A DNA stretch of 64,000 nucleotides from Branchiostoma floridae (taxonomy: Eukaryota > Chordata > Leptocardii > Amphioxiformes > Branchiostomatidae). The translations under genes and the position numbers were made by a program. Under the pieces are notes generated by a model. The model saw only the letters and a list, made by a program, of their open reading frames with translations, did not search any database and had not been told where the DNA came from. Below, in pieces: positions 22,582 through 57,991 of the stretch. The DNA is taken from assembly GCF_000003815.2 (NCBI RefSeq), contig NC_049981.1, positions 18,461,041 through 18,525,040 of the forward strand, given 5' to 3'. Within the stretch, counting starts at the first letter, position 1, and each line of letters begins with the position of its first letter.

Positions 22582-22650
22582 ATGGCCAGAGATACAGAAG
22601 TGAGCTGCTTGGTCAAGTACCTGGTTTTTGGCTTCAACGTGATATTTTGG
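22582..22650 (+). CDS. TSPAN5/14/17-like: Tetraspanin exon 1
   Basis: Encodes [23 protein letters not shown]: the cytoplasmic N-terminus with a palmitoylatable cysteine and the first half of TM1. Donor TTTTGG|GTGAGTA. Confidence 0.93.
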
Positions 22651-31600: not shown

Positions 31601-34600
31601 TAGTTTTGTATCTTTTGTCCAGGAAATGCTCATGTTTTGATTTCATGGTGACAGGTAGCTTTTGATATCACTATCAGGAAGAAGTGGTGTAGTTTTGCAC
31701 CCCCCCCCCCCCTCTACCCTATTATATTAGTGACTTGGGAATGTTTCTCAGAGTGCCAGTTGGTGTAGTCAATACCAGTGATATAGGGACTATCGTCCCA
31801 CTAGAGGTGATCAATACTCACAGCACATGTACCCCAAAAGAAAATGACTTTTGTGGTTCAATATATCAATGAAATATCTATTAGAGTGAATTACAAACAT
31901 TTGAAATCAATGCTAAACAATAGCAACAACACCCATGTCACCACTTGTAATGGACTCTATTACTTAATGATATGCAGAATGTTATTACAATGATTTGAAC
32001 AGGCAGAAATTTGTCCATCTTTGCATTGAACTAGCCAAGAATATTTGCCAATCAGAGCTAAGCTCTCAATGTAAAGTGTAGATGTAGGTTTGGGCAGTTT
32101 ATTTCATCTGATGGATAAAGGGTAATAAATAAATAAATGAAAGACCTTTGTAAGTATAGGTCATGATGAGAAAGTAAAAGTATTACAGAATATGAACTGT
32201 CAGCTCAAGCAGTTCATAAACAATAAAAAAAACATGTTTTTCGCTGGAAAACTGATCTAAATTGATATATGGCATATAAGTGACAATGACAAATGATAAG
32301 TAACAGTAGAATGTGTCAGTGCAATGCTTTATGTTTGTGGACCCCCTCTAACCACAAATGACCCATTCATCCTTGTAAAATACAAGTTATGACTGCTCAA
32401 AGACGCATCATCACTCCTACCCAGGTACTTCTGTAATGCTGGGTCACATTTCCAGTCCAGGGCCCGGTCGACCAGGTTTGGTCCAAAAACCAAGTAGATT
32501 TACATGTAGGTTTGTTTTTTTCTAGGGCGAGCCTGCATTTTCACAAATTAAAATGTTTCCTTTCTAGTTTTTTCATCTTTCCAGAAATTATGGAAGGAAA
32601 CATCCTACCGTTTGCCAGGTCCCCTTATTTTTTGATAGAAATACAAGTTAATTGGAGTAACTTGGTTGATACTTGTCCATGGTACATAACAAATTGTAAC
32701 TACATCACAAAAATAGGAACATTACACTCAGCACATTTGGTCTGCCTATGCTATTAGCCCCATTGTGAAGATTTTGTGTGCATTATGGGGATCACGATGG
32801 TTGGTTTAAATAGTATATATACTTAATGAGCCTTTTTAAGATTATTACCAGGCCATAAATTGCCATAGATTCTGGTAAGTCTACTGGGGTATAAAATGTG
32901 CCATTAACGGGCAAATAAAGCAATGATAATTCTGATAGATTTATAGCCCCAATTCATAGCCACTAATTGCACCAGCATAACAAATAGTGTCAGTTCCATG
33001 GTTGATCCAGCTTAATTGTTCAATGGTTGGGTTTTTTCTTAATTGTTATGTTATTGCCATCAATTGTATGCATATGTACATGTATGTATACATTGTAAGT
33101 AATTTGGTTTAATTTGCAGTTTTAAGTTTTGTTCTTGGCCATGTAAAGATGTCCTTTGGTTGTGATCTTGCCCTGAAAGTATCATGGTTGGGCAGTTGTT
33201 TGCTTGAGACTGTAAATGTAAAAATGTTTGCTGTGATTTTATGTTTGGAGTTTTTCTCTTTACCAAAAATCGAAACCAAAATGAACATATATTTTTCTGT
33301 CTTCTACTTGCCCCTATGCTTTACTGTGAACCAAGATTTAAAACCACTGCAGACACTCCATTTTCTCCCTACCACAAAATTTAATCCCCACAAACATTTT
33401 ACCTTTTACAGTATAGCAATTATGTTTGCATTTCACTCCAGCAGAAAATACTTTCTCTGCTAATTCTATTCATTGCCTCATTTCATGGCAATGGACAGGC
33501 ATCCTTTACTTTACTTGTAAATTTTACCCAGAAATATAATTTTTTTCTTAGGTATCAATTGCAATTAGTCGTCTGCTTGCTTGCTTGAGAAAATCACAAT
33601 ATTTAGTGGCAGTATGCTGTTCACTCTCCTCTCACGGTGACTCCTACAGCGGTATCGGAAATCCAATAGCTAATCTGTAATCGTCTATTAAAGTGCACCC
33701 AGAAATGGTAGCGCCATTTCTCACATGAACAGTAAGGTCTAGTTACTGTTCTGCAAGCTGAGTCCAGGATGGTCTTCTGATCAATTATTGACTAGACTGT
33801 GATGGCTGGATGGCACTGGAATGGGAGACTGGGTTTCAGAGGCATGGGGTCCCCCTGGAAATGGGTTCAGGGCACACACAATGTGACTATATTAAAGGCT
33901 TGGTGGAGTGTATCATACAAATGGTCCGATGTAAGGAGAACCATGCAATAAAAGCACTGGGCTGTTTAGTGCCAGATGAATTTAGCACACAACTGATAGT
34001 GTACAGGGATGTAATTTCACTTTGGGGGGGGGGGGGAGTGTTTTGCAAGTAGTAACACAAGGGAAACGCATGTTTGCAGTTTTTCGAATCCACGACGAAG
34101 GAGTTGCTGCAAAAATGGAACTACATGTACCATAAATACTGTTCTCAAAAATGAAAGAAACTTATATTTCTGCCTTGTAACGTTGTGTGGATTCCCACAT
34201 GTTGTATTATAGTGATTGCATGCGTCATATTACATGCAATGTTAACAATTTGTCTTCTCTTTTACAGTTGGCAGGAGGCTTCATTCTGGGCATAGGACTC
34301 TGGGCATGGTTTGAAAAGGTAAACTGCTCGCTTGTTTTCTGTTCCTTTTGTCAGATGATACGGTTTGGAACGAGCTGTCTGACTCTGAGTGGTGTAACAG
34401 GTACTCAATTTGTCATGACTTTGAATTAGTGTTTTTTGTAAACTAAATGACCAGTCACTTTACTAGATCTTAAGGTAGCAGTGATGCTGTGGTTTGCCAA
34501 GAAAGTTGATACATTTGTACCTCTTTGGATGTGTGAATCTTCGTGTGTTGGTGTGTGTTTGTAGACAGCATAACTTGAGACATCGTGGACGTTGGTACGT

Positions 34601-37600
34601 GTTGACAAGGTGAAGAAACAATTAGATTTTGGGCGCCCTAGTGACTTCCTTGATATTGCATCAGGATGTCTGTTTTTGATGTCTCATGTTCCAGACTTGC
34701 TATGGTTATGATATTTGGAAGGTAGATATGTCTTGTGCTTGTCAAAGACATTTCTTCAAGGCAGAGTAGTATTGAATGCATTAGTGTAAACCATGTCAAG
34801 TAAAGATTCCTGACTGGCTAACCTACATTTACATGTAAAATTCTTGTCGAATGAACATTTTTTGTCCAAGGAATGAATTAAGAGTCCATTGATGTTTTTC
34901 CCTTAGGTATTCTAACCTTATTTCCTCCACCTTTATAGCATTGCTGATTAAACTGTCCCTGCCCTGTAAATTGGAAGAAAAAAATCTGATTCTACGTAGT
35001 GGTTTCCCACAGTGCAAGAAATCTAGGCCAACCTTGTTTGAACTAATTTCTCTTCCCGATAACCTTGTTTCCACAGGTCTTTTCAGAAGGCCAGGACTCC
35101 CTCTTTCAATTAACTTTTTCCCATAAGTGCACCTACTATGTTATTACCTCTGGGAAAGGGGTTCACCTTCAACTGGAGTACTGTTCAGGTTGTGTTTGTG
35201 TTTTTGCACCAATAACTCAAGACCCTTCAGATGGATTGGCATGATTTTTGATCATGTGTAGTTATAGAGGTCCCAAAGAATTGTAGTGATTTGGGCCCCC
35301 TAGCAGTATTTTTAGGTACTGCAGCATTACTATACAGCCCGACACCCCCTTCCTGAAACTAATGTGGTACCATCAATTTCTTGTTTGTATAGCAGATGTA
35401 TTAGTACTACCCTCCAAATCAATATGAATGCTAATCCCAGAAGCTTGCATGCAGATAAAGATTTTTCTTTATATTTGACCACTTTCGTTTGAATGTGTTT
35501 TTCCTTATCCCAATTTTGCAAAGGTCATGACAAATTCCAGGAAGCTGGAACTTGCTGTTTATTATGAGACTTTTAAACCAAGGAGGTTGAACCTCATTAT
35601 CGATGCTTATCCTTTCTTGTAGAAATTCCATGGAGCCGCCAGCCCAGGCATGCCTGGAAAAGTGTTGCACCGTCTTTTCAGATGGGGAGCTGGTAGCCCC
35701 ATGTATGAGGCACCTTATGGCACATATAGAATAACCCAACAAACTAACAAGAAGAGTAGGGGCGATCTAGTGTACTTTGCTAAATATACGAGCCGTAGCA
35801 GTGCCACATTGCATGCACAACTGCTAAATGCAAAATGCTTCGTTTCTCGAAAGACTCAGGTTTCTCTCCGGGAGACTCGACAGTTAACTCACTGTTATAT
35901 CTAACACATAATATGCATCAAGCACTTGATCAAGGACTTGATGTACGTACTGTTTTTTTAGACATATCTAAAGCATTTGATAAAGTCTGGCACTTGGGGC
36001 TAATTTTTAAATTAAAACAATTAGGAATAACTGGTCCCCTCCTTGCCTGGATTGAGTCATATTTAAATGATCGTGAGCAGCGTGTTGTACTCAACGGAGC
36101 CTGTTCCGAATGGCTACCCATTGGTGCTGGTGTCCCACAGGGCTCTATTTTGGGCCCACTTCTTTTCCTTGTTTTCATTAATGATTTGGTGGACAACTTA
36201 GAAACGGATGGCCGCTTATTTGCAGATGATGCCTCACTAACTGAGATTGTTAGAGACCCTATTATCTCAGCTGTAAGGCTAAATCACGATCTTAGACTAG
36301 TTCATAACTGGTCACGTCAGTGGCTCGTTACATTCAACCCTCTTAAAACTCAACTAATAACTTTTACAACCAAGCGAACTAAAGTTGTACATCCACCACT
36401 GTATTTTATGGGTATTCGGTTGACTGAGGTATCCTCTCACAAACACCTCGGCCTACATCTTACGCCAAAATTATCATGGTCATTACATGTTTCAATTATT
36501 ACAACTAATGCAATGAAACGAACAAATTTACTAAAGAGAATTTCAAGATTTGCTCCAAGGCAAACACTCGAAATTCTTTACAAAACTATGATACGACCAC
36601 TATTAGAGTACGCCGATGTTGTATGGGATGAATTGTCGGTTAAAGATTGCAACCTAATTGAATCTGTCCAGCTCACTGCAGCTCGAATTTGCACAGGTGC
36701 AATGAGAGGAACAAGTAACGACAGCATCTTGTCAGAAGTTGGGTGGGAAACTACTGCCAGCAGACGCCAAAAGCACAAACTTATTCATTTTTACAAAATG
36801 GTTAACGGTTTAACACCTGAATACCTTTGTGAAATTATTCCACCCCAGATCTGTGACCGCACTACATACAGCCTTCGTGCTAATCAAAATTATATCCAAA
36901 TTCCTTCTAGAACTGAGAAGTACAGGAGATCATTCTTACCTTCCTCTGTTCTTTCATGGAATAAACTACCGCTCACTACCAGAGTATCTCCCTCTGTTGC
37001 TAGCTTCAAAAATGAGTTGGAGTCTTTTTTCTATAGACCTCCTACCCACCTTCACTTCTCGCATGGTCCCAGATACCCAGCAATCCATCTCACTAGACTT
37101 AGACTTAACTTCGGTCAGTTGAATTTCCACCTGTTCCAACATAAATGTGTAAATAGTCCTATGTGTAAATGTGGCCACCCTAACGAATCAACTATACATT
37201 ATTTTCTACACTGTCCTCTATACAATGATGCAAGACTTGATATGTTGTCATCTTTAACCACTATGTTCATGCAGGGTATCTTACCATTTGACCCAAGACA
37301 CACCACTGAAAATATTTTATGTTCAACCTTACTCAGGGGAAACCCAGTACTATCTACCATTCAGAACTGTCATTTATTTGATGTTGTATTTAAGTTCATC
37401 AAACAGACAGATCGTTTTAGCTGAACCTTATTTGATTATTCCTAAGTTTGTTTATCAGTCATATGTCACTCTGTTGTTTGATTCCTTGTTTATTTTCATG
37501 AAGTTATGTCTTGTGTTCAATGGACAGGTTGTTTAAGTTGATTTATAACCTTATTTGTTTAACTCTAAGTTTGTATGCCAGCTACACGTCACTTTGTTAT

Positions 37601-40600
37601 TTGATTCCTTGTTGTTTTATTTCATGTCGTTATCATTATCTCTTGCCTTTGTTATTTAGCGTTTTGTAGTCCTGTATATGTGTCTTTATTTTGTTTATGT
37701 ACATGAGGAGAAGACCTCGATAAGCAGGGTCTGCTTTCCGTCTCATCCTCTTTAAAGAAATGTGAATAAAAAAAATAAAAAAAAATGCTTCGTCATCAGG
37801 AAGAGGTCGTTATCTTTACCATTCCTTGTACACATCTGTGTTGTATAACAGGGCACGTTTGACAACATTGCGAAGGTGGCCAATGTCCCCGTGGACCCTG
37901 TGCTGATCTTCGTGGTGGTCGGTGCCATCATGTTCATCCTGGGCTTCTCCGGCTGCGTCGGGGCGCTCAGGGAAAACATCATCCTGCTCAGATTTGTGAG
38001 TTTTTCTTGCAGTTACTTTTAGGCCATTTGATCCAAATAGTAAGTGATATACACACAAAAAACTTCTCTATCATGAGTTAGATTAGTTCATTTGAGCTTA
38101 ACTGGTTTGAGATCACTTTCATCACACAAAGTAATCATGCTAGTAGTGAGAAGTTGTTGTTTTTTTCTCCAGTTTTCTGTGGTTCTCGGCATCATCTTTT
38201 TTGTGGAGTTGGCTGTGGGCGTGTTGGGCTTTGTGTACAAGGACTGGGTAAGTAGAGTCATAACCATGGTATTGTATTTTCTCAAGTAAATACATAGACC
38301 CCAATAAAATATGTACCATTGATTGGGAGCAAGTCACAGACAACTCTGTAGGACTGAAACGTAAAATGGAAAAACTCAGTTGTAGTACACATCCCATCTC
38401 CACCGTTGTTGAACACATTTTGAAATGGATGAATTTGAATTTATTCCGTTTTCTGCCTAAATCTAGGACTCCATACAATATCCATGCTTGAATTTGTAAA
38501 AATGCTAACTTAAAGTGCTGAATGCTGGCATCATCTCTACAACCTTGTAAATTGCCTACCGCTATGTAAATTACAATTTTGAATCCTGTAGTGTTCTGTT
38601 GTAATGCAAAGAGAGTGATATCTTATGATCAATTTTTAATAGTTTACCTTTACGTCTTAAAAGCTATTGTAATCAAACAGTGGCCATGATGTCCTTACAG
38701 AATGGATGTTTTATCTGTTGACTATGAGACACTGATTGACTGAAAACTCTCATTTGTCCCCACAGTTCAGGCAGCAGCTGGACAACTTCATCCAGGCAAA
38801 CATCATCCACTACAGGGATGACCCTGACCTGCAGAACATCATTGACTTTGTCCAGTCCTATGTAAGTACATCATCACTGTACCGTAAAGTCATTTTCTCA
38901 GTAGGGATGTCCCTGTAGCTCAACTGGTAGCAGCCTCACAGATTTTCCAATTAGTTGGTAACTGGGAGGCCTTGGTTCAATCCTGGGAAGGGAATCTCAG
39001 TTGAGGCTGCACCCATCTTTTGGAAGGCACGTAAAATGGGGGCCACGTATTTGAGGGACACCTTGCTACTGAAACAGCTTGGAAACTTGCTGCCCTATGT
39101 GCCACTAGACACTACAAAGGTCTGAACGAACAAAGGTACAAAAGTCACATTTTTAAAAAGTTTCCTGCATTCAAATTTTGCTCATAGTAGGAGATTGTAG
39201 GAATTACAATGTCTTTTGTACTTATAAGTTTGTGTGATGACCTTTTTGTAGCCTAGTTTTCTCTAAGAAGTCCAGTGTGTATTACCACATCACTCAGACT
39301 GGTATTCCTGAAATGTATCGAAACAGTTACAAAATACAACAACAATTACATAATGTGTACTCCAGTCTACAAAAAGCACACTTTGAATCGTATCAGGAAG
39401 TAACATTCAAAACATGGGATCTTTGTCAAACAAGTCAAGAAATTCCACTCTAATTGTAAGAGTATGGAAATGTCTCAGTATGTAGTCATGTACTCACAGC
39501 ATTATGTAGTTTTATTACTAAGAAGAGTACGTGCCTGACTTTAAAAAAAATGCTGACTACTACTAACAATAATATAAAGAATGAATCTTCATATTCCTAG
39601 AGTACTTTCTCTGTGATTTCTTGCAAGTACCCCTTTGGTATGAAGCCAACATGCAAAATCATTACCTACCTTCAGGCAGAGTATATTGCCTGAAATAAAA
39701 GCATGGCTCCTAGCCAAACATTTTATGATGTCCATCATGTTCAGTGAAGGCCACTGGAGGATAGATAACTTTCTATCTCCGTCTTATCAAGGCCACCGGC
39801 CTTTTGGTCGGCGTCTGCCGTAATATAATGAAGGAGTTGGGCTCCATTAGTGGTGGATTACAGCCCGCTCCGTGCGATAGATAAGTGCTTGCCAGGCAGA
39901 CCTGGGGTAACCTATGGCCAGCACATGGCCCTGGTACAGCCTGTGTGGAGCAGTGCAGCTGGCAGCTGCTATTTCTCCTATCAAACTGACTTACAGGCGA
40001 TCCCAGTTCAGGCAAATCTGATTGAACGTCCGATGCAAATTTTATTCCGCTAGCATGGAAGGTTCTTCTAAGTCAAGGAAGGATGAGTTTTAAAGAATTC
40101 CTGTGAGATGAAAAAGGGCTAAGGTTGTATTTTTATTCAGCCATAAAAGGTTGGTAAAAAAATGTGGCAGGGCTGTGCATGTTTGTGGAACGAAAAAGGT
40201 GCCTATGGATTGCCATCAAAAGCGAATTTGAATTACATTACTGCATCACAAATCATGAACTTCAAATCCTGCAGACATGATACAAATCTGATTGAATGTC
40301 AGATGCAAATCTTATTTCCCCAGCATGGAAGATGCTTATAAGTCAGGAAAGGGTGAATTCTAAAGAACCTCTGTGAGATTAAAAAGTAGAGGGGTAAAGT
40401 TATATTTCTATCCATCCATGAATGGTTTGTAAAAAAAAATGTAGCAGAGCCCTGTATGTTTGTGGAAAGGAGAATAATAATTGGATTTCCATTCGAAAGT
40501 GAATTTGAATTGCATTATTGCATCACAAGTCATGAACTTCAAATCCTGCAGACATGACACAGTGCAAGTTGTAAGCTATACAGTCAAATGGTTTTCAGGT

Positions 40601-43600
40601 TTCCTTGTGTTTATCTCATTGAGGAATCATAGCCTAGATATTTGACTTGAACAGAAAGACTGTAAATATGAGGTACATTGTACATTTGTGATATGGTATT
40701 ATACTATAGATATTGTAATGCATAGAATTAGATTGCAATGCAAATTTAAAACATATTCCTTTTAAGCACATTGTATTAATTTGTAGTCAAACTAAATGGA
40801 TTTACCAGTAAGCAGTCTTCTGTACATGTTAAGTTTTATTGATAGTTGGCTTGACTAAATCACATGTTTTGAGACAAAAACAGTTCCTATCTTACTTTTA
40901 GGTACAGAAACACTCGAAAATGATTCAGTACATGAAAGTTTTCTTGTAATTGTACCAAATGTGGATACACTGTCGGCCAGGGAATAGGAAGACCAATGCC
41001 AGTAAGCCTGATTTTATACCCAGACGATCCTTGCCTTACATGCATGTACCTTAAAACAGTTCACATTCTCGATCATAGCTGTACCTGAAACCATGTCAAG
41101 GACTCTATAAATCCAGCCTTGCTGTTATAAGGAGTCTCAGACTTCCGTCTGCCTGTCCTTATTCTAAGACTCCAGTTATATAAAGCTCCCTTTGTAACTT
41201 CCAGCTGAGACCAACATCAACATAACCCCAAAATCAATACACGATACGACCTTTTCAACCATTCCAGTTCGCCCACAGCAAATTAATTTTATGGATGACA
41301 TCAGCGCACGCATTCTATTTCTTCCATAGGTGGTCAATATATTGAGGAAATACCCAAAATAGGAAAATATGTTGTGTTGAGGCCTTGAGTGTACTGAGAC
41401 ACTAGTATGATAGCATTGAGCGTAGTTACCAACTAAAACTAGGCTACTGTCACTTTTGACTTCTAATCTAAGATACAAGAATAAAAGACTAGTTGGCTGT
41501 GACACCATGTTTTGTCACTTCAGTTCTTCCTACAATGTTTATTCTATTATATATATATATACATATATATATAATACATGTATTTTGAAAATTTAGGCAT
41601 TTTAGGCGTCTTGTTTTTTAATCATCTTTTCTGTCACTCTTGCATTGGGTTCGGAGTCTGTTGAGATATCATCCATATAATTTACTTGCTGGGGCTTTAG
41701 GGATCGCAGTCTTTTCTAAATGTCCTTCTATAGTGCCTTGATGAAGATAGCTTCATGAATACTTATGAAGTTCTGACTGCTAAGTGAAGGTATATTTCAG
41801 CATCTCAACCCCATTTAGTTAAGCCAGCATGCTACTCAAGCCTCCTTAGGTAATTTGAAAGAGTAAAACTGTAGAATAGACAGAGCCTCGATACCAGGAA
41901 GCCCTTTTATCTTTTCCAACCTGTTTAGTATTAACAGATTTAGTTAACGATGATGAAGGGCAATTGTAACATGTTTTGCAAAATAAAAAGGCAGGTGGGA
42001 GTGAGAAACTGTAATGCATGGTTGGACGTAATTGAAATAAAAGGGGAAGATGGAAAACATACCATGAATTTAAAGCAAGGATTGTATGCAACCAAGAGGC
42101 CCCTGTGGGACATTCCCAACAGCTAAACTTACCAATATTGAGTAGAAAAAAATGTGACGTGTGGTGGTATGCCTAAACACCACAAACAATCACAACAACC
42201 ACAAATGGGTCTAATATGCAGTGTACATGGGGCAAGGACTTTGCATTGCGTGACGCTCTGAATATATTGAAATTTTGGCTGCCATATTGGTGTTCAATTT
42301 GTGCTTTGTTATTATTCATGCATTTCCATAGGCACCTCCAACACCACATAATGTACATAGTACAAGTAGTGCTCAGACAGGGGGTAGGTGGGGAGAAGAT
42401 GGAACAAAATGTTCATGGTGGTTTTGAGTTTGCGGTGAAGTGGTCACCCTGAAAACTGCAAACAAAAGAAAACCACCACGAACATTTCTGCATTTAGAGT
42501 GATTGCCAGTGTGCGCTGTAGGTTTTGAACCACTCACACCCAGAATGACTCTTTTTGATATATGTGTGGATGTTCTTTTACATGCTAGAGGTGTTGTTCT
42601 TCTCACACAGGACCTCCATATAGAATGCTAGTCAAAGAACAGCCCAAACCAAGGCCAGGTTCTCATTTTCTCCTGAGTAAAGGGAGAAAAGTTTCTGTCT
42701 CAAGGACACAAGATCGGTGACATATCAACAGATTTGAACCCAAGACCTCTAACTCTAAGCTTTGGCTGAATATGCCTCACATATGACGCCATAATTGCAT
42801 ACTAGATGATATATCTAGAGAGTTATTGTGGTGTTTTTCGGCATACCCATGTGTGGTTCTCCACCTGTAGTTCCAGTGCTGTGGTGGGGAGGACTACAAT
42901 GACTGGGAGAACAACATCTATTTCAACTGCACACTGAAGGAGTCCCGCGGGTCCAGAGAAGCCTGCGGCGTTCCTTTCTCGTGCTGCAAGGACCAAGGGA
43001 ACAACAACGTCCTCAACACCCAGTGTGGATATGACGTCAGGGAAGAAGAAATAAACGTATGTATGCTGGGATGTTGTGTTAGGTCTGATTAATGAATGAT
43101 TAGGAACAATTAGTTATCTCTATTTATTTATTTATTTATTTATGAAAGAAAGAGAGAGAGAAAGAAAAAGAAAGAAAGAAAGAGAAAGAAAAAATAAGAG
43201 TATATGCACTGTGCTCCTGGTTGAGTGACTTCTGTTTAAAAAGGGGCCCCCTTGTGATTACTTTCAAAACTGCGACATATGCTCTATAACTTCTAGTACA
43301 ACAAAGATACCCAGACTATTACAGCTTATCGGGTACACTGGTAATTTGATTGAGTGATAAGCCCTAGAATTAATAGCAGACGGCTGCATATATGGTGATA
43401 AGAAATTGAAAACTATCAGGATGGGACTGCTAGAAAATTGGCTGCATCAGCAAGATACTGGGGCGGACGGTTGTGCCAAGAATGTGCCAAATTGTGGACT
43501 TAAACATGGAGTTAAACTGCCAGGAATGTGTGTAATCATTTCGCCAGATCTCTGCAAAGGATATTAAGTTGGAGCTTGACTCCATGAATCCTGATCAGGG

Positions 43601-46600
43601 TATCTCTTCATTATCTGGAAGTGTCAGGACTTTGGGATATATTGTAGGGCCTCCATGGTTCAATATTGACCATGGTAAAATCCTAATTGACATCAGCCCT
43701 ACAGCTTCCCAATGGCTAAACGAGAATGACAGTGTCTGTGTTTGTCCTCTTACAGCCGAGTGCACGAGCCTTAGCCATCTACACAAAAGGTTGTGTGCCT
43801 CAGTTTGAGGCCTGGCTGCAAGAGAATTTGTTTGTGGTGGCAGGAGTGGCCATTGGAATAGCACTGTTACAGGTAGGGCTTGTTAAGAATACAGTGTGCT
43901 TTCTGATAGCAAAACTGTTATGTCAGGGCCAGCCTGAGTACATGTAGAACAGAATGAACAGAATAAGAATGTAGCAAATACATTTATGGATATTGTTTAA
44001 TTTGTGACTGTACACCAACATATCACACACTTTTTATAAGCTTGCTGAATTATCTAAGAAATCCATGTGATTGATGTACTCTCTTAATTTAGTATTTGCA
44101 AGTTTGCACTAATTTTCCTGTTTGCGTAACTCAGTGTTTTCATTTGAATCTCTTCATTGTAAGTTTTAGCAATGACAGCATTGTCTTTTGATATCTTTGA
44201 TTTCTTTGAATTGACATTTAACTTAAGATTTGCATGCTAAAGATCCCCACTTTGACAGTTTATACTGAAACATTGTAATCCTGATGTGTACTATTATACA
44301 GACATACATACTAAATGTTCTTCACTTCCTTCATGTTTGTGTTAACCAGTCTTGTCATCAGAGGCAGATCTAGGGGGGTTGCCTGTCTCAATGCCCCTGT
44401 CTCCTTTACTAATTCTCATAGACAATTCGGGAGATTAGTTTCTGGTAAAAAGTTTCTAGAAAAATCACGCTATTGTATGTTATATGGTATCAGTAAATTG
44501 ATGGCCCTCTCCTGATGTTTTTAATGATCTGCCTCTGAGTGATTCACTGTATGTAGTGTGAAGTATTTTGACTGCATACATTTCTGTGTTCTTTAAGCTT
44601 GTCCTGTTGCTACCTCATACCTTTCCCTTGTATGCTGTGTTAGTCAGCTTGTGCAACTTTACCCATGTTGTTCTTCTTTTTTTCCTTGATAAAGAGACCC
44701 CTCCTATCCGCTTATGTCTGTTTGAAACCCATTTTTGTCCAAAGAGTAGAACGTCCAGACACAACTTTCAACCATATATTAGTGTTTTTAAAAAATCATA
44801 GTAATACTGTTGTTAACTCAGCATATCGTTTAGCATATTGTGTATCCACTAATCTAACCCCAGTCCCTCCCTATACCATTCATACCCAGTGTGGTTTTCA
44901 GCTTACCCAAGCGACATCTATTTTTCACCAAAGCTGAGGCAGTGCATGTAGTTGCTAGTTGTCATTCTGTGTTGGCTTGCACATGTACATATAATTGGTC
45001 TATACTACAGGTATACATTTTAGCCATCAGGTATATGAATACAAGTGTATATTACTAGTATATACTGAAGCTTATCCATGCATGCTTGTACCAGTGATCT
45101 ACTGATTGCATGACTGTCACCTGTCTTACTGCATGTTTCATGTTTCAGGTGTTTGGTATTTACCTGGCCAACAGCCTGGTCAGCGATATTCAGGCCATTC
45201 AGGCCCTCTGGTAACCCCCATGCACAGCTTTCCAGGGCGGGGCGGGTAAACGCTTTTGCCTTCTGCTTCACAACGCTGCCGTGGCTGTCTCTGTGTCTCT
45301 GAACTTCCCAGGACTTATTTTCAGTTAAACTTAATTCTGTACTATTTGATGAATGTACCATCCTCACCCATTCTGCAGTACTGACTTCATAACAATACTT
45401 TAACAAAGACTTGTTTCAAATCACATTTGATTAATATCCGGACAGATACACAGCAAATGAAAACATTTTCAGAACAAAAACACGAGTTGTATTTCCTTTT
45501 TATTCTACTGCAGCAAGAGCTCACACTCTCCACCTCACATTGTGAGACAAGTTCCCTGTTCTGTCCACTCCTATATCCATGACATCATACATGTACAATG
45601 TATATATATACCTGTTTCCCTCAAAGATTTTTCAGCTGATACATAACTGATCTACTCTACAAATGATGGCATGTACACGTGCATTACCGACTGGCAATTC
45701 AGTATGGTGTTTCATTAACACCATATTGTGTTGTGTGGCATAACGGCAGGGTGAAGAGTTCCTTGGTTAACGTTCAGACCCACTGATTTGTCACCAATCT
45801 TGTGCCCTTGGGAAAGGCACTTTACATGACTTTCCTCATTCCCTCAGCTCAGGTGGAATTGTGTACCTAGCTTACATGGTTAGGGCCTCCCTCAGATAGA
45901 ACATTAAATGGAGTTCCCATCTTTGGTGAGGGCCATAACTCAACTCAAGCATGTTAAAGATTCTGCCACACCTCAAACACATTAAAGAACCTGCCACACT
46001 TATTAAAAAGATTAGTAGACCTTCCCAGCATGGGTGGATCAAACCTATATGTTACAGCCTGGTCTCTGGGTTGACATCTTGAAAAGATGATAGTCACCTG
46101 TTACGTCAATTCTTACACAAATGTGGTAAACCTGAATAAATGGAACAAGGCTTGAAAAGCCATCAATGGGAAAATAGTTATCCTGGTAGATATGGAAATG
46201 AGGTAGTGATGTTTGGAGGATTTTAAAAGGAGACATGTTCTCCATGTGGTCCTGGGAAGTTGTGGAGTCTGGAGGACACAGAGACATCCACGTGCAGCCT
46301 CTGGGCTGGTACATCTGACCCCGATTGACCTGGGACCTTCCCTCATCCTGATTCAGATCATCTGTCTCTCTACCAATCTCTCAGTTGGGACACTGTGCAA
46401 TACTGTGTAGAGCTCAATGACATGCAAAACCCTCATTGTTTCCTCTCCATATCTATTCCTGTAGTTCAGTCAATTTATAACCTACCAATTTATAGCTACC
46501 TTGGTCCCTATAGCTTCTTGGTCAAAGTCATCCTGAAAATTCTACATCTTCCATTGATATGCACAAAAACAAAACAATGTGTAAAAGATATGGCCATACC

Positions 46601-49046
46601 GTATTTTCTTGATTAAAGTCTCAGACAAATCTGTAGGACTGAAACCTAAAATTTAAAAACTGGAATAAGAAAAGTATGGTATGCACTCCTTCGCCAATGT
46701 TGAACACATCTTGAAACAGCTAAATTCAAATTCAGTTTTTTTTCTCTTTTCCCTGGGTGGTTTTGCATATATCAAGGATGTCTGATAATACGAATATAGT
46801 ATACAATGTCCTTGCCAAATTTTTACATGGTAGTATTGTACTGGTAGTGTCTATGCAAACTTTACTGCAAGATACAAAATTGCTAAGAGGGACTTTTAAT
46901 CAAAATAGTTTGAATTTTGAAAAGTTAAAAAAGTGCACTTTTTTTTACTTTATTCAAGAAAACAAGGTATAGTGATTTCATCAGGTTATTGCATCTTAAC
47001 TATATTGGATCGGCAACAGACTCAGGAACTAAACACTTGCTACTTGCTTGATCCATGCCCTGGCTTTTCCTAAACATGTTGTGTCTTTGTGTGACAACAA
47101 ATAAAGGGCAGGGTCACACGTAGGCATGTTGTGTACGTGAGCAATTGTATACATGTTCAAGAAAAGTCCTGTTCCTACATGTATATTTATATAAACTGGT
47201 CAGTGTAGCTCTTATAATACGGAAGAAAAAAAGGATTCTATAAAGAATCCATGTGTATAACAAAGAAGGTACCAATATGCTAAATACACAGTATGTACAG
47301 TTTTCTTGATGTTGACTATAATATCATCATCTGTTGCATTCATATTTGAGTTGTGCTGCTCTAGTAGTACCTTGCACAGTGTCCCTACCTTTGTCTGTCC
47401 TACAGTACAGTACTCTTCCTTAGCAATGTTTTGTCTTGGATCCTTCTTCTGAGACTTTTACTAATCCAAGGCAGAATGTTGCCGGTTGTTTCCCATAGGC
47501 AGCAATGAGAGATACCCGACTTTTCTGTAGGCATGGGAAATGAAGGATTTGGGATGGTCTCCAGCCTACACATACTACAGCCATGCTTTTGTAGTGAAAG
47601 GGAGGGGCCATTGAATAATGTGGGGAAAGGTGACAGAGTTGAGCAACCAGGATGCAAAAGACGTACATGTATTTGTTAATTAAAGGTTTACGCAATGAAG
47701 TTCGAAGGTCTCTGAGATACTTCTGAGTCCTGACAGTCAATGGTCTAGAAAGCAAACCAGTTAGTGTTCGAAAGAAAAGGCATTGATTCCAACTGGCATA
47801 CCATTATTTATGTCATACCTGGGCTAGAACACAGGTCAAAATGGTGTTATGGACTAGTCCATATTTTACAGTTTAGTCTGGGCTTCCAAGTTATATTGCA
47901 CAGGCTTCCATCAAATGATTCAAATGCACGTTGCATGCGCCGCTGTTGAAAATTTTACTTCCAGATTTGGACGGTGGAATTGATGTTATTACAATTTTTT
48001 GTCAAGGGACACCAAATTGTCTCAACTTCTGGTGCATTCCGAATTCAAATATGTGTTTTTTAGACAAAGATTTATACAACCTTAATTCTGTACTTGACAG
48101 ACTGTCACGAACACCGAAAACACCTTATTATGTCAACAATATCATGTCACCTTGTCTGACATTGGAATGGCCCATCCTATAGCTGCATTGCTTACTGTGC
48201 TCATCAAGATAGCTTAGTCATCATTACCTGTAGCTTAAAATTTAACATTTCTAAGTCTAGTACATTTGATTTTATGTTGCAGAAACTCTCGAGAAGTGGA
48301 GAGCTTTCTGTTTCTACAACTGTATTTTTAGCCTGTTTTCAATGTAGATAGTTTTGTTGTACAATGTAGACTACCTTCAAGAAGACTAAAAATATGAGTA
48401 TCTTTTTAGCTTCAATAATAATCTTCTGTATCATTATAGTTACAGATTTTTATTTGTAGAGACAATAATTATGCTTCTATATAATTATCTTATCTTGCTT
48501 TGCAGTATCCAATTATAGTCAATAACAATATTGCAGCCTTCCTCCTTGCGATAGTTAGTACAGTTAGCTTTATTGACTTATTATTTCTTTTTTAGTTGAA
48601 CTATAAGGTACAGAATAATACAGAAAAGTACGTTAAATGTAGTAGTATTGTGAAGATATTATGGATGACATTAGCTGTGTCCATTCATGTTGGTACCAAA
48701 CTACTGCATTTTGTAGATTTTTTTCTGGCTGACAGAGGCTCTGTCCCAATCATGTGCTAACACCATGCATGTTCAGTTGGTTTTCTATGTCAGGTTGTTG
48801 GAAAGTATCAACTATGAAAAAGCCTGTCCAATAGTTTGACATAGCCAACTTGATCATTGCTAATTTGATGTTTATTTTTTCTGGAAATTTGTGAGGGACG
48901 TTGTAGATTTATTGTTTTCTGGACCAATGACCATCTTCCGTCTGAACCCCTGTATGAATCTGTTTCAGATCCTGGGAATCTGTTTTGCAAACAGCCTCAT
49001 CAGCGACATCCAGGCACAGAAGTCGCGCTGGCAGTTCCGCAGGTAG
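22582..49046 (+). CDS. TSPAN5/14/17-like: TspanC8-group tetraspanin (TSPAN5/14/17-like), alternative last exons
   Basis: Four-pass membrane protein. Exons: 22582-22650, 34268-34318, 37852-37995, 38173-38247, 38766-38861, 42871-43056, 43756-43872, then either 45149-45214 or 48969-49046. All internal junctions are phase 0. The products are 267 or 271 residues, the usual tetraspanin size. TM1 falls at about residues 12-36, TM2 about 58-78, TM3 about 86-110 and TM4 about 231-250. The large extracellular loop carries CCGG (148-151), an NCT glycosylation sequon (164-166), CGVPFSCC (177-184), C197 and C220: eight cysteines, the signature of TspanC8 proteins. In vertebrates these bind ADAM10 and control its ER exit and substrate choice, thereby affecting Notch cleavage. 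The sequence is closest to TSPAN5/17/14 ([21 protein letters not shown]) rather than TSPAN33. The Kozak context is good (AAGCCATGG). Intron 1 (11.6 kb) holds two assembly gaps and intron 2 a LINE insertion. Confidence 0.93.
24655..24760 (-). mobile_element. LINE 3'-end-like fragment
   Basis: 'gaatgaaagacctttattg' followed by a 'tgcctcggcgggctaggtac' segment. The word gaaagaccttt recurs at 32130-32150 after 'aataaataaat'. The AT-rich short-repeat end suggests the 3' terminus of a minus-oriented retroelement. Family and full extent unresolved. Confidence 0.3.
27218..27317. other. Assembly gap (100 N)
   Basis: Exactly 100 undetermined bases, the conventional placeholder for a gap of unknown size. 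The flanks share words such as 'attcataccctcatttt' (near 26993 and 27516) and 'tttggtgca', which suggests the gap fell within repeated sequence. Confidence 0.98.
28524..28623. other. Assembly gap (100 N)
   Basis: Exactly 100 undetermined bases in tetraspanin intron 1. Open frames that appear to run through it are artefacts. Confidence 0.98.
28774..28876. mobile_element. Short inverted-repeat element (MITE)
   Basis: A 103-bp element. The left arm 28774-28802 (agcctggatactacaccc...) and right arm 28848-28876 pair over 29 bp with two mismatches, around a 45-bp AT-rich centre with no coding capacity. The outer end 'agcctgg' is shared with the element at 52403-52501. No clear target duplication is visible. 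Confidence 0.75.
28940..29720 (+). repeat. Composite dispersed repeat with about three internal units
   Basis: Begins with a perfect hairpin, acctccatga-aatg-tcatggaggt (28940-28963), then a GT/GTCT tract. About three diverged units of roughly 280 bp follow. Each has 'ataactcaagaa(a/c)gg', 'cggatt..catgatttttgg', 'gggccccctagc' or 'gcccccta' and 'actgcag(c/g)' words. Related single units appear at 31440-31740, 34550-34740 and 35150-35340. No open frame. Most likely a non-autonomous element family; class unknown. Confidence 0.6.
31488..31548. repeat. GT microsatellite
   Basis: Interrupted (GT)n/(GTAT)n, part of the GT tract that follows the 'aatggaggta' head of a dispersed repeat copy. Confidence 0.85.
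34268..34318 (+). CDS. TSPAN5/14/17-like: Tetraspanin exon 2
   Basis: Acceptor cttctcttttacag; codes [17 protein letters not shown], the second half of TM1 and the start of the small loop. Donor AAAAG|GTAAAC. In phase with exons 1 and 3. Confidence 0.92.
35832..35843. repeat. Target-site duplication, left copy
   Basis: aaaatgcttcgt, identical to 37782-37793. It marks the left edge of the LINE insertion; the ATG that opens the long frame belongs to this flanking sequence, not to the element. Confidence 0.8.
35835..37424 (+). CDS. Reverse transcriptase C-terminal part of truncated LINE
   Basis: 529 codons with no stop. The first three residues come from flanking DNA. RT motifs in order: [29 protein letters not shown], the [20 protein letters not shown] block, and LFADDASL (the catalytic Y/FADD box at about residues 129-132). 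A thumb-like region follows ([25 protein letters not shown], a [11 protein letters not shown]-like helix). A C-terminal knuckle-like motif [20 protein letters not shown] ends the frame. The enzyme would copy element RNA at nicked DNA, but the N-terminal endonuclease and RT fingers are truncated, so this copy cannot mobilise itself. Not a host gene. Confidence 0.85.
   Translation: MLRFSKDSGFSPGDSTVNSLLYLTHNMHQALDQGLDVRTVFLDISKAFDKVWHLGLIFKLKQLGITGPLLAWIESYLNDREQRVVLNGACSEWLPIGAGVPQGSILGPLLFLVFINDLVDNLETDGRLFADDASLTEIVRDPIISAVRLNHDLRLVHNWSRQWLVTFNPLKTQLITFTTKRTKVVHPPLYFMGIRLTEVSSHKHLGLHLTPKLSWSLHVSIITTNAMKRTNLLKRISRFAPRQTLEILYKTMIRPLLEYADVVWDELSVKDCNLIESVQLTAARICTGAMRGTSNDSILSEVGWETTASRRQKHKLIHFYKMVNGLTPEYLCEIIPPQICDRTTYSLRANQNYIQIPSRTEKYRRSFLPSSVLSWNKLPLTTRVSPSVASFKNELESFFYRPPTHLHFSHGPRYPAIHLTRLRLNFGQLNFHLFQHKCVNSPMCKCGHPNESTIHYFLHCPLYNDARLDMLSSLTTMFMQGILPFDPRHTTENILCSTLLRGNPVLSTIQNCHLFDVVFKFIKQTDRFS
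35844..37781 (+). mobile_element. 5'-truncated non-LTR retrotransposon (LINE) with intact RT frame
   Basis: A 1.94-kb insertion in the sense orientation of the host gene, ending in an A-rich tail (gaataaaaaaaataaaaa) and bounded by a 12-bp duplication (35832-35843, 37782-37793). It begins inside the reverse-transcriptase domain, so the endonuclease and any ORF1 are missing. An uninterrupted frame to 37424 and exact target duplications indicate a recent insertion by target-primed reverse transcription. Its tail contains AATAAA at 37765-37770, which could act as a premature polyadenylation signal for the tetraspanin transcript. The clade (CR1/L2/Jockey-like) is not resolved by eye. Confidence 0.88.
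37782..37793. repeat. Target-site duplication, right copy
   Basis: aaaatgcttcgt directly after the A-rich tail, matching 35832-35843. The host sequence resumes as 'catcaggaag', 58 bp before the exon 3 boundary. Confidence 0.8.
37852..37995 (+). CDS. TSPAN5/14/17-like: Tetraspanin exon 3
   Basis: Acceptor gttgtataacag (weak pyrimidine tract). Encodes [16 protein letters not shown], then TM2 ([17 protein letters not shown]) and [14 protein letters not shown], the conserved tetraspanin GCxGAxREN loop. Donor GATTT|GTGAGT. Confidence 0.93.
38173..38247 (+). CDS. TSPAN5/14/17-like: Tetraspanin exon 4
   Basis: Acceptor gttgtttttttctccag. Codes [25 protein letters not shown], the third membrane helix. 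Donor GACTGG|GTAAGT. Confidence 0.93.
38766..38861 (+). CDS. TSPAN5/14/17-like: Tetraspanin exon 5
   Basis: Acceptor catttgtccccacag. Codes [20 protein letters not shown] and [12 protein letters not shown], the helical A/B part of the large loop with the family's YRDDxDLQNxIDF signature. Donor CCTAT|GTAAGT. Confidence 0.93.
38903..39125 (+). repeat. tRNA-derived SINE with A and B boxes
   Basis: A-box-like tagctcaactgg (38916-38927) and B-box-like ggttcaatcc (38974-38983), spaced as in a tRNA gene. They are followed by a non-tRNA body ('ggctgcacccatcttttgga'). Body copies occur inverted at 2521-2700 and 61078-61235, and the head at 5309. Confidence 0.7.
40014..40556. repeat. Two-copy 270-bp tandem duplication
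   Basis: 'caaatctgattgaacgtcc' at about 40013 recurs as 'caaatctgattgaatgtca' at about 40283. The following 270 bp are repeated with roughly 15-20 % differences by eye; both copies include 'catgaacttcaaatcctgca'. Not coding. Confidence 0.8.
41551..41577. repeat. AT microsatellite
   Basis: tatatatatatatacatata-type repeat of about 27 bp in tetraspanin intron 5. Confidence 0.85.
42625..42790 (-). repeat. tRNA-derived SINE, minus orientation
   Basis: Read on the minus strand it has a B-box-like 'gggttcaaatc' (inverse of gatttgaaccc). Plus-strand words 'tctgtctcaaggacaca' and 'aagacctctaactctaagc' are typical of a SINE body and head in reverse. Confidence 0.45.
42871..43056 (+). CDS. TSPAN5/14/17-like: Tetraspanin exon 6 (variable part of large loop)
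   Basis: Acceptor ggttctccacctgtag. Encodes [20 protein letters not shown], then [12 protein letters not shown] and [14 protein letters not shown]: seven of the eight loop cysteines and the NCT glycosylation site. This is the portion that selects the partner protease in characterised family members. Donor AAAC|GTATGT. Confidence 0.94.
43057..43755. other. Tetraspanin intron 6
   Basis: Begins with a TTTA/GAAA low-complexity tract (43120-43195). Near its end, at 43655-43712, is a dispersed repeat also present at 16571-16625, including the palindrome ccatggttcaatattgacc-atgg, only about 45 bp before the exon 7 boundary. Confidence 0.75.
43756..43872 (+). CDS. TSPAN5/14/17-like: Tetraspanin exon 7
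   Basis: Acceptor tttgtcctcttacag. Codes [39 protein letters not shown]: the eighth loop cysteine and the first part of TM4. Donor TTACAG|GTAGGG. It splices in phase 0 to either last exon. Confidence 0.93.
45149..45214 (+). CDS. TSPAN5/14/17-like: Tetraspanin alternative last exon 8a
   Basis: Acceptor catgtttcatgtttcag. Codes [21 protein letters not shown] then TAA: the end of TM4 and a short tail. It aligns residue by residue with exon 8b 3.8 kb downstream. No AATAAA lies close by; the first clear one is at 47100-47105. Confidence 0.88.
   Translation: MFGIYLANSLVSDIQAIQALW
45740..45930 (+). repeat. Diverged SINE-like repeat
   Basis: 'cccttgggaaaggcacttta' and 'ttcctca..ccctcagctcaggtg' words match the body of the repeats at 62255-62522 and 9340-9590. 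The head is too diverged to show Pol III boxes. Confidence 0.4.
48969..49046 (+). CDS. TSPAN5/14/17-like: Tetraspanin alternative last exon 8b
   Basis: Acceptor cccctgtatgaatctgtttcag. Codes [25 protein letters not shown] then TAG: the end of TM4 plus a basic tail four residues longer than 8a. A polyadenylation signal follows at 49192-49197. Confidence 0.9.
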   Translation: MLGICFANSLISDIQAQKSRWQFRR

Positions 49047-49191: not shown

Positions 49192-49197
49192 AATAAA
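49192..49197 (+). terminator. Polyadenylation signal of the tetraspanin gene (8b form)
   Basis: AATAAA 146 bases after the 8b stop codon. The cleavage site is inferred about 15-30 bases further on. Confidence 0.7.
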
Positions 49198-55443: not shown

Positions 55444-57143
55444 CTGCATCCGACAAAAAGGTTTGGGTTTATAATAGAACATGGAGGTAATACTGTAAGA
55501 GAGGAAATATTTGCAAGGGTTTATTTCTGCAATAAGTAGGAAATGTAGTATTTGATGTGTTTCTCTTAAGTTCGCAGTTGAAAAGGGCTGGTGTAGGCAA
55601 AAAGACAACAAAATGTTGGTGAAAAAGTCCCAGCCAAAATGCAAAAGTAGAACCACAGCAAACATTTTCCCTTTTACAGTACTATACACAAAGTTCAACA
55701 AAAATGAAACGTCTCACAATCATCATAGTCTTTAAAATCTTGCAATGTGAGAAGCTTTGATGGGCTATATGTATCTGAGGTCCCCTAAAATGTATGGGCT
55801 TATTTCTGTCTATTAATTTGTGCATATAGTGCTGCATGCCAGGGTTGGACAAGTCCACTAGTCCTGGGCAAGTGAAAGTGCCGATGCGAGCAAGTGAAAG
55901 TGCTGATGTGGGCAAGCGCATGATGCCTTAACCTACCTTGGAATCTGACTCTTCTCCTTGATGTTCTGTAGTGAGTCTGGTGTGATGGTGAAGGGCACAG
56001 GTTTGGCCACAGCCTTCTCCTTGGAGTCCCTGTACTCTAGAATGATCTCACTCTGTTTGGTCAGGTCTTTGTTCAGCAGGGAACGCTTCACCTCTGCACG
56101 GAGCAGGTACTGAATGTTCACGAACACGCCGTGGTACGTCTCATACAAGACCTTGTTGTGTCCCTTTGGCTTCAGGGGAACTTCAAACGGAATTTCGGTC
56201 TTACCGGAGGGCAGCTTGCCAGGTTTGACCAGCTCTACCGCATAGCTGACCAGTTGGATGGGCTTGAGGGAGTTGTAGAAGGCTTCAAAGACACCTACAC
56301 TTTTGGCACTCAGCTGTAGGTTGACTGAGCCCTCCATAGAGAGGTTCACACCTGGAACAGAATAGTGGTATACAGTCAACCCTGCACAAATGATCACCCC
56401 TACATAATTTCATAAAAACCACCTGCCCAACCTCTACACAAGGACCACCTGGCCATTGATATATTTCATTTTCATTGGTACAGTCAAGCCTGTACAAGTG
56501 ACGACCTCTTCACACGGGCAAACTCACTTCATAGGCCCTGTGAGAGTTTGGTCATGTGTCACCGACTGTCAACGGACAGGAATAGACTAGCATATCCTTA
56601 TCCACACTCTTGGACCTGCCCCTGCTTATCTCTAAATGGTACGCTCAAGCAGTTTTCATTATTATTTTTACAAACAATTTACCAACAATTCAACATAAAG
56701 CACTACTGCACACGTTTTGGTAAACTTAATTGATGTCGAAACTGCACAAGAGCAAATTCTCACAGGAGTCTGCTGATGCTATATAATAAGGACAACCTGG
56801 CCATCGATTTACACAAATTACAGTAAAATCTGTACAACTACATAAGGACCACTTGGCAATTGATTTACAGTCAAACCTGTACTGGTGACTACCTCTACAT
56901 AAAGACCACCTGGCCATTTATATACAGTCAAAATGTACAAGTGACCTCCTCTGCATGCTGCATAAGCCAAGAACCACCTGGCCATTTGATATACATACAG
57001 TCATAAAGGTTCCTGACATCTATACGTTCTGTTGTACCTTGATGCTGCATGTCTCCTTTGCTCTGGATGACCACAACTCCAGACACGAGCTCCCCCTCGT
57101 AGTAGATCTTATTCACCTTCTTAAGGCGGATGTCTAAGGCCAT
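55074..57143 (-). CDS. VPS26C: VPS26C (DSCR3), retriever complex subunit
   Basis: Exons 57143-57038, 56351-55937 and 55443-55074 join to 296 residues, the family's length (297 in human). The protein is an arrestin-fold subunit of retriever (VPS35L-VPS26C-VPS29), which works with the COMMD/CCDC22/CCDC93 complex and SNX17 on endosomes to recycle integrins and other receptors. Visible signatures: MALDIRLKKVNKIYYEGE near the start, HQGVNLSMEGSVNLQLSAKS, KPIQLVSYAVELVKPGK, LYETYHGVFVNIQY, SRPLTGELVVESSE, the near-invariant VETCGCAEGYARDATEIQN and NDHLITENFPLKL near the end. All phases agree and nothing looks broken. The start ATG has a strong context (GCCACCATGG). An upstream in-frame ATG at 57293 would add 50 residues not expected in the family. 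It is divergently transcribed from CDK1, with start codons 848 bp apart. Confidence 0.96.
55937..56351 (-). CDS. VPS26C: VPS26C exon 2
   Basis: Acceptor accactattctgttccag; donor TCCAAG|GTAGGT. Encodes GVNLSMEGSVNLQLSAKSVG to LQNIKEKSQIP, the rest of the N-terminal lobe and the linker. Confidence 0.95.
56352..57037. other. VPS26C intron 1
   Basis: 686 bp with several diverged repeats of a 'ccacctggccattgatat..acagtcaa(g)cctgtacaa' unit (near 56445-56500, 56795-56850, 56860-56935, 56975-57005). This is a loosely periodic minisatellite-like array, not coding. Confidence 0.6.
57038..57143 (-). CDS. VPS26C: VPS26C exon 1
   Basis: ATG at 57143-57141; codes MALDIRLKKVNKIYYEGELV, SGVVVIQSKGDMQHQ. 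Donor CATCAAG|GTACAA. Confidence 0.95.
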
Positions 57144-57991
57144 GGTGGCTAAGCCTACAAGCTCTTTCCCAACTTCCGAACAAAAAATCAGGGTTGTCCA
57201 AGAAAAATGGGGAGGGGGGCAGGCACGAATTTGCACAAGACGACTCGTGAGAATCAAAGTCCACTGGGGTCTGTCACTCAATGGAAAAGTCAAGACAGAC
57301 TTAAAGACATAATTTTTCTACAAATAGGAGTCATACAAATTGCCTAAGTGAAGGAAATCTTGCATTGAAAAAAAAAATCAATTTCTCTAGCTGATTTCTT
57401 GCAAAAACGCCCACTTCCGGGTTCAAAAGCATGATGGGAAAATGCAAAACGAGGCCAAAATGAAAAACACCACTTGATTGGCCGTTATATGTTAGACGAT
57501 CTCTCATTGGTTGATTTAAAGACTGAGGCACTAGATTTGAAAACGTAAGATTCAGAACTGAGAAGGGATCCAGCTGGAGGAAGGTTTTAAAGGTTTGTGG
57601 GATTTTACACCTTTATTTCATACCTTTGGGGAAAAGTTTGAAGATCTTTGATGACTGAACATGAATAAAAACAAATAGGGCCGACGGAAATGTTGATCTC
57701 ACCGCGATTTTCCTGTTTTAGGATGGAAATTTGAAGATTTTTTTGTGACAGATGCACACAAAGGGTCGAGTAGCGTGGGGCTTCCAAGATTCAGACAGTT
57801 GAACATTTTCCCCCAGTTTCCTGCCATCATCAGCCTGAGATCGGAAAAATAAAAGAAGTATTTTCAGCTAGTACGACAGTTTGCATCTGTGCCCACAGAA
57901 TATAGATTTCTGTATAACAATTTCATTTGTTATTTTGAATATTTTTCTTCATCACAGGGTCGTAGCCTGGTACTCTTTGTTTGATACAAAA
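57144..57991. promoter_or_regulatory. Divergent VPS26C-CDK1 promoter interval
   Basis: 848 bp between the two start codons. It contains inverted CCAAT boxes (ATTGG) at 57477-57481 and 57506-57510 and TTTGAA at 57536-57541, at spacings of 29 and 30 bp. This is the order and distance of NF-Y boxes and the CHR in G2/M genes, including vertebrate CDK1. A splice-acceptor-like tract (tatttttcttcatcacag) ends at 57957, suggesting a non-coding 5' exon and an intron before the CDK1 start. TSS positions are inference. Confidence 0.6.
57477..57541 (+). promoter_or_regulatory. CCAAT-CCAAT-CHR cell-cycle module
   Basis: ATTGG at 57477, ATTGG at 57506, TTTGAA at 57536. In vertebrates NF-Y binds the CCAAT boxes and DREAM/MMB binds the CHR, repressing in G0/G1 and activating in G2/M. 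That this module drives CDK1 here is inferred from motif spacing and position only. Confidence 0.5.

Follow-up and report, generated by a model that had tools for sequence, protein, structure and literature searches.

Duplicated last exons in a lancelet TspanC8-type tetraspanin gene, and a TGCATG cluster that suggests RBFOX control of the choice between them

The tetraspanin gene described here lies in a 64-kb window (C3:18461041-18525040, the whole stretch of DNA analysed) of the Branchiostoma floridae assembly, which was also the genome searched (513,431,437 bases in 431 contigs). The gene ends in two alternative last exons, 8a and 8b, which, as judged from their codons, are an ancient duplication held as coding by selection. 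Both last exons are very probably used. The reading that we favour, at somewhat better than even confidence, is that the gene makes two TspanC8 isoforms through the choice of last exon, RBFOX repressing a default 8a and thereby giving 8b. Given that both exons are used, RBFOX control of 8a would explain the choice better than any other single account, a view we hold as firmly or slightly more so.

The gene model comprises eight exons, listed in Table 1. The spliced model is open throughout, with AG and GT bordering every joint and all joints in phase 0, and gives proteins of 267 residues with 8a and 271 residues with 8b. Both proteins match the Pfam Tetraspanin family PF00335 over positions 1-223 of the 225 in the profile (E 1.5e-55 and 2.7e-56; 188.7 and 191.2 bits), and the large extracellular loop has eight cysteines, with CCGG. 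The family match and the loop cysteines bear out the description of the protein as a TspanC8-type tetraspanin in the first-pass annotation of this DNA, an assignment that is supported at the DNA level. In a PDB search with a 154-residue piece covering the loop region, the closest chains were human Tetraspanin-15 (E 1.6e-29) and Tetraspanin-10 (E 1.5e-24). Human TSPAN5, 14 and 17 are absent among the seven PDB matches to this piece, and membership of the TSPAN5/14/17 subgroup is at most suggested by the tail, where SDI-A- resembles the SDIEAVKAGHH of human Tspan14 (a peptide given in PMC4751363).

Table 1. Exons, TGCATG sites and poly(A) signals of the tetraspanin gene, numbered from the first base of the window.
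Feature	Position	Strand	Description	Evidence
Exon 1	22582..22650	+	First coding exon; ATG, start of TM1	Open spliced model; tblastn
Exon 2	34268..34318	+		Spliced model; tblastn E 7.9e-7
Exon 3	37852..37995	+		Spliced model; tblastn
Exon 4	38173..38247	+		Spliced model; tblastn
Exon 5	38766..38861	+		Spliced model; tblastn
Exon 6	42871..43056	+	Bulk of large extracellular loop: CCGG and next five cysteines	Spliced model; PDB match
Exon 7	43756..43872	+	Last loop cysteine and outer TM4; donor CAG/GTAGGG, phase 0	Spliced model
TGCATG	44943..44948	+	-206 of 8a acceptor; RBFOX-type site	Motif count
TGCATG	45079..45084	+	-70 of 8a acceptor	Motif count; shuffle test
TGCATG	45107..45112	+	-42 of 8a acceptor	Motif count; shuffle test
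TGCATG	45130..45135	+	-19 of 8a acceptor	Motif count; shuffle test
Exon 8a	45149..45214	+	Coding part with stop	Spliced model; acceptor ATGTTTCAG
Candidate 8a poly(A) signal	45903..45908	+	ATTAAA, 689 nt past stop; T/G-rich stretch downstream	Sequence
Alternative candidate 8a poly(A) signal	46135..46140	+	AATAAA, 921 nt past stop; without T/G-rich stretch	Sequence
Exon 8b	48969..49046	+	Coding part with stop	Spliced model; acceptor CTGTTTCAG
8b poly(A) signal	49192..49197	+	AATAAA, 146 nt past stop; T- and GT-rich downstream	Sequence

Several other features were found in and near the window. Intron 2 holds a 529-residue reverse transcriptase open reading frame (35835-37424, + strand; Pfam RVT_1, E 1.5e-19), with a tail rich in A near 37780, some 70 nt ahead of the exon 3 acceptor region; the element looks like a retroelement without LTRs. 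The window also contains a Vps26-family gene (55933-57293, minus strand; PF03643, E 5.1e-20) and a protein kinase exon (61404-61715, + strand; PF00069) that is CDK-like by eye. A TSPAN15-like TspanC8 gene (L061; C3:18538705-18541336, minus strand) lies about 29 kb past 8b, placing two TspanC8 genes close together. Of the best 41 Pfam Tetraspanin matches in the genome, 25 fall within a 1.2-Mb stretch at C4:8.15-9.37 Mb, a large local expansion of the family.

The first-pass annotation had proposed two last exons, each with an acceptor and a stop and in phase 0 after exon 7. Both are present at the positions it gave; they are homologous, each joins exon 7 in frame in the same phase, and each has a poly(A) signal downstream. 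Its further proposal, that the two arose by duplication and share an ANSL(V/I)SDIQA core, agrees with an ungapped BLOSUM62 comparison in which 8b scores 63 against 8a (self-score 104), while the next best score is 26 among the 7,621 frames anchored on an AG in the window, both strands counted (mean -23, sd 10); no further exon 8 copy is therefore found among these frames. The likeness runs beyond the core to the last W of 8a. Directly upstream of the two exons, 16 of 20 alignment columns match, a likeness that is partly generic to any acceptor. We note that the TGGTAA of 8a (45206-45211) contains GT, a possible donor, which if joined to 8b at 48969 would lead to an immediate TGA.

The 21 aligned codons comprise 5 that are identical, 7 with synonymous changes and 9 with replacements. 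Nei-Gojobori proportions are pS 0.85 and pN 0.23 over all 21 codons (Fisher P 2.9e-5), and 0.97 and 0.15 over the first 16 (P 1.2e-6); the rates are rough given so few codons, and the contrast between pS and pN is large. The differences fall 7, 3 and 13 at codon positions 1, 2 and 3, a distribution that is weakly uneven when taken alone (P 0.04). Because the synonymous sites are saturated and the peptide is retained, both copies were under selection at the protein level through most of the time since they parted. This codon pattern stands in, indirectly, for conservation in another lancelet, the test that the first-pass annotation had named.

Among the matches listed, 8a and 8b occur once each in the genome, and there is a TspanC8 paralogue at C3:8.08 Mb; the tail of this paralogue, ALCFARKMINDIELIKAYW, is the nearest relative of exon 8. 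The 14 and 17 genome matches listed include no further copy. A search by eye did not identify the last exons of the TSPAN15-like paralogue or of a paralogue on C223. The tail at C3:8.08 Mb combines the cysteine of 8b with the W-stop of 8a, and each exon 8 copy therefore seems to have retained one old feature and lost the other, a hint provided by one outgroup. The same losses, of the TM4 cysteine from 8a and of the W-stop from 8b, could be taken to mean that a single exon is used, the other being a relic in decay that has survived by chance. Against this, amino acids have been retained while synonymous sites became saturated, and the frames, stops and acceptors of both exons are intact, which would fit only a very recent death; we consider such a relic improbable.

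A search of the window with both proteins using tblastn finds exons 1-7 once each and exon 8 twice. This bears on the idea that 8b is all that remains of a second, tandem gene, or that the pair is an assembly artefact formed from two alleles. Lancelet genomes are highly heterozygous, and there is indeed another TspanC8-type gene beyond 8b; however, that neighbour is TSPAN15-like and on the opposite strand, and alleles would not show synonymous saturation. A remnant of a second gene or pseudogene was rejected because exon 8 alone is repeated in the window, and allelic misassembly because synonymous sites are saturated, leaving either origin very improbable.

The two exons alter a small and well-defined part of the protein. 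The most hydrophobic 21-residue window of TM4 is 232-252 in both forms, and exon 8 starts at residue 247. The exchange does therefore replace the end of TM4, as had been suggested, but it covers six of the 21 residues rather than the inner half of the helix. The 8a tail is short and hydrophobic and ends in W (net charge -1, mean Kyte-Doolittle value 0.42, helical moment 0.89). The 8b tail extends four residues beyond the W position and is basic (net charge +3, mean Kyte-Doolittle value -1.77, helical moment 0.50), so that the basic C-terminal extension ascribed to it is supported at the DNA level. The two forms also differ close to the inner end of TM4, at a residue that is Tyr in 8a and Cys in 8b.

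Studies of related proteins give some indication of what such a change might do. In worm TSP-12, a tail motif ILxxxxxWYY limits the surface level, and mutating it raises surface TSP-12; in the tail mutant worms no phenotype could reportedly be detected, and the position of SUP-17/ADAM10 was unchanged (PMC13153982). The I-x6-W spacing of this motif is kept in 8a, in 8b and in the lancelet paralogue. Chimeras of Tspan5 and Tspan15 are reported to show that cytoplasmic domains, together with other parts, contribute to ADAM10 endocytosis and Notch output, and a study cited in the same paper found that the Tspan33 C-terminus moved Tspan15 and ADAM10 to junctions (PMC6892437). The same source describes Tspan5 lacking its four palmitoylation cysteines as reaching the surface like wild type, and palmitoylation-site mutants of Tspan15 likewise; the Cys/Tyr difference between 8b and 8a may therefore matter little. 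The tail swap would probably alter how the tetraspanin is trafficked, and with it ADAM10, its presumed partner; the effect on ADAM10 is one that we infer from these relatives.

The region in front of 8a contains a cluster of TGCATG sites (Table 1). This hexamer occurs 41 times on the + strand of the window and 27 times on the other. The cluster is the sole one on the + strand with three sites within 150 nt, and the sole one on either strand with three within 75 nt. At least three TGCATG in the preceding 80 nt are found at 1 of 3,742 AGs, and no such cluster precedes any of the gene's six constitutive acceptors. The spaced triple was obtained in 0 of 100 dinucleotide shuffles, and random placement of 41 sites put a cluster at any of the gene's eight acceptors with a frequency of 1.15e-4. 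The RBFOX reading is post hoc, TGCATG having been noticed by eye first and 11 motif patterns counted afterwards, and among 272 hexamers about as abundant, 29 form a three-within-75 cluster somewhere in the window (against 4% expected for TGCATG); allowing for this clustering excess and for the 11 patterns, a fair chance figure is near 3e-3. Near 8a and 8b, patterns for NOVA, PTB, MBNL, CELF, ESRP, SRRM4, QKI, STAR and TIA gave no comparable excess, though there are two ESRP-type matches within exon 8b. In longer upstream windows, what stood out was limited to GTATAT, present three times before 8a, and, before exon 3, a run of A and one T-rich word. The 8b counterpart of the -19 site reads TGTATG. 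The cluster ahead of 8a suggests a regulated switch between the two exons.

The genome contains an RBFOX-like gene with an RRM, seen as three collinear matches on C171 (96, 70 and 82% identical). This gene (C171:246850-250159, L064) has a 93-nt RRM exon with TGCATG at -187, -84, -53, -34 and -9, and another TGCATG spans its donor. A search for the Pfam Fox-1_C family gave no match in the genome, nor in the controls. Across 66 genome loci examined, the TGCATG triple was present in five, four of them overlapping the 8a place and the fifth being L064, which, having been chosen as an RBFOX gene, counts as a positive example rather than a random draw. Rbfox2 exon 6 is likewise a 93-nt RRM exon with upstream UGCAUG. 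In vertebrates, Rbfox proteins are reported to repress that exon (PMC3126832), and the array in L064 looks like RBFOX autoregulation of a kind shared with vertebrates, with the difference that its exon is an internal 93-nt cassette whereas 8a is terminal; in both, the array is just upstream of the acceptor. RBFOX binding upstream of an exon is described as typically repressive (PMC5633781).

Other features of the two exons could account for the choice without RBFOX. The 8a acceptor is the nearer and scores 8.7, as against 5.8 for that of 8b and 5.6 to 9.9 for the other six, using an untrained weight matrix, and the poly(A) signal of 8b is the stronger. There is no canonical poly(A) signal close to 8a, and we regard the 8a signal as the weakest point in the case for a duplicated last exon. 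Both exons might thus be used with the choice depending only on how strong and how near the acceptors are and on polyadenylation kinetics, and with a TGCATG cluster that is due to chance or has some other role. The post hoc character of the motif finding and the general tendency of hexamers to cluster lend weight to this account, which we consider possible but distinctly less probable than RBFOX control. What it leaves unexplained is that the cluster is at a place where RBFOX is repressive, ahead of an alternative exon while the six constitutive acceptors lack it, and that the same design recurs in the RBFOX-like gene of this genome. The first-pass annotation left it open whether acceptor competition or alternative polyadenylation decides; the sequence favours acceptor competition overlaid by repression of 8a through RBFOX.

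In the mechanism that we propose, 8a would be the default, having the nearer and better-scoring acceptor. RBFOX, where present, would block 8a by binding the cluster, which lies over the region of its branch point and pyrimidine tract, and transcription would then reach 8b, whose poly(A) signal is near textbook. The resulting switch of tail may alter membrane anchoring or adaptor binding, and this in turn may change the endocytosis or placement of the tetraspanin and ADAM10, while the loop expected to bind ADAM10 would stay unchanged across both isoforms. The cells that express RBFOX in vertebrates are neurons and muscle. In its fullest form the proposal, which is speculative and taken whole rather unlikely, is that in RBFOX-expressing cells the basic, cysteine-bearing end reroutes ADAM10 and hence Notch signalling, so that splicing of one gene would do the work that vertebrates divide among several TspanC8 genes.

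Comparable arrangements are known in other genes. CALCA has UGCAUG/Fox sites at exon 4. Calcitonin/CGRP is described as switching between alternative last exons, the proximal of which has a weak poly(A) site (PMC3647115), and as a Fox target (PMC3126832). It resembles the lancelet gene in that a shared exon is followed by a proximal or a distal terminal exon giving different C-termini, in the involvement of UGCAUG/Fox, and in the pairing of a weak proximal with a strong distal poly(A) site, as for 8a and 8b (PMC3647115, PMC3126832). The CALCA exons, however, are unlike each other and encode different peptides, whereas the lancelet exons are duplicates that change the TM4 end and tail alone; and RBFOX action has been tested in CALCA, whereas for the lancelet gene we infer it. 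In KRAS, the mutually exclusive last exons 4A and 4B exchange one membrane-targeting tail for another, with cysteine in one and basic residues in the other; 4A reportedly derives from an NRAS exon inserted into KRAS, whereas the lancelet copy is local (PMC9882654). Unlike in KRAS, the cysteine and the basic residues occur in the same lancelet exon, 8b.

Within the TspanC8 group, C. elegans TSP-14A and TSP-14B are isoforms reported to differ in localisation, but it is their N-terminus that varies and their 3' ends that are common, and not the C-terminus as in the lancelet gene (PMC8827444). In human TSPAN17 isoform 3, an alternative splice site in exon 8 alters the stop and the C-terminus (PMC6773723, Table 1), through a frame shift rather than duplicate exons. 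TSPAN5 is listed there with one isoform, and the variants of TSPAN14 and TSPAN15 skip internal exons; no duplicated last exon appears among the human tetraspanin splice forms covered here, TSPAN5, TSPAN14, TSPAN15 and TSPAN17 among them (PMC6773723). Titles and abstract openings in the literature on tetraspanin and amphioxus splicing, mostly outside subscription journals, describe no duplicated last-exon pair in a TspanC8 gene. Duplicated terminal exons that swap membrane tails are already known (KRAS 4A/4B, PMC9882654), and, within the literature so covered, it is their occurrence in a TspanC8 gene, together with the TGCATG cluster, that appears to be new here.

A lancelet gene that altered its cytoplasmic end alone by splicing would separate the role of the loop from that of the tail naturally. 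TspanC8 proteins set the location of ADAM10 and the substrates that it cuts, a job that vertebrates split among six genes. A splice-switched tail would tie the choice of TspanC8 end to a known splicing regulator.
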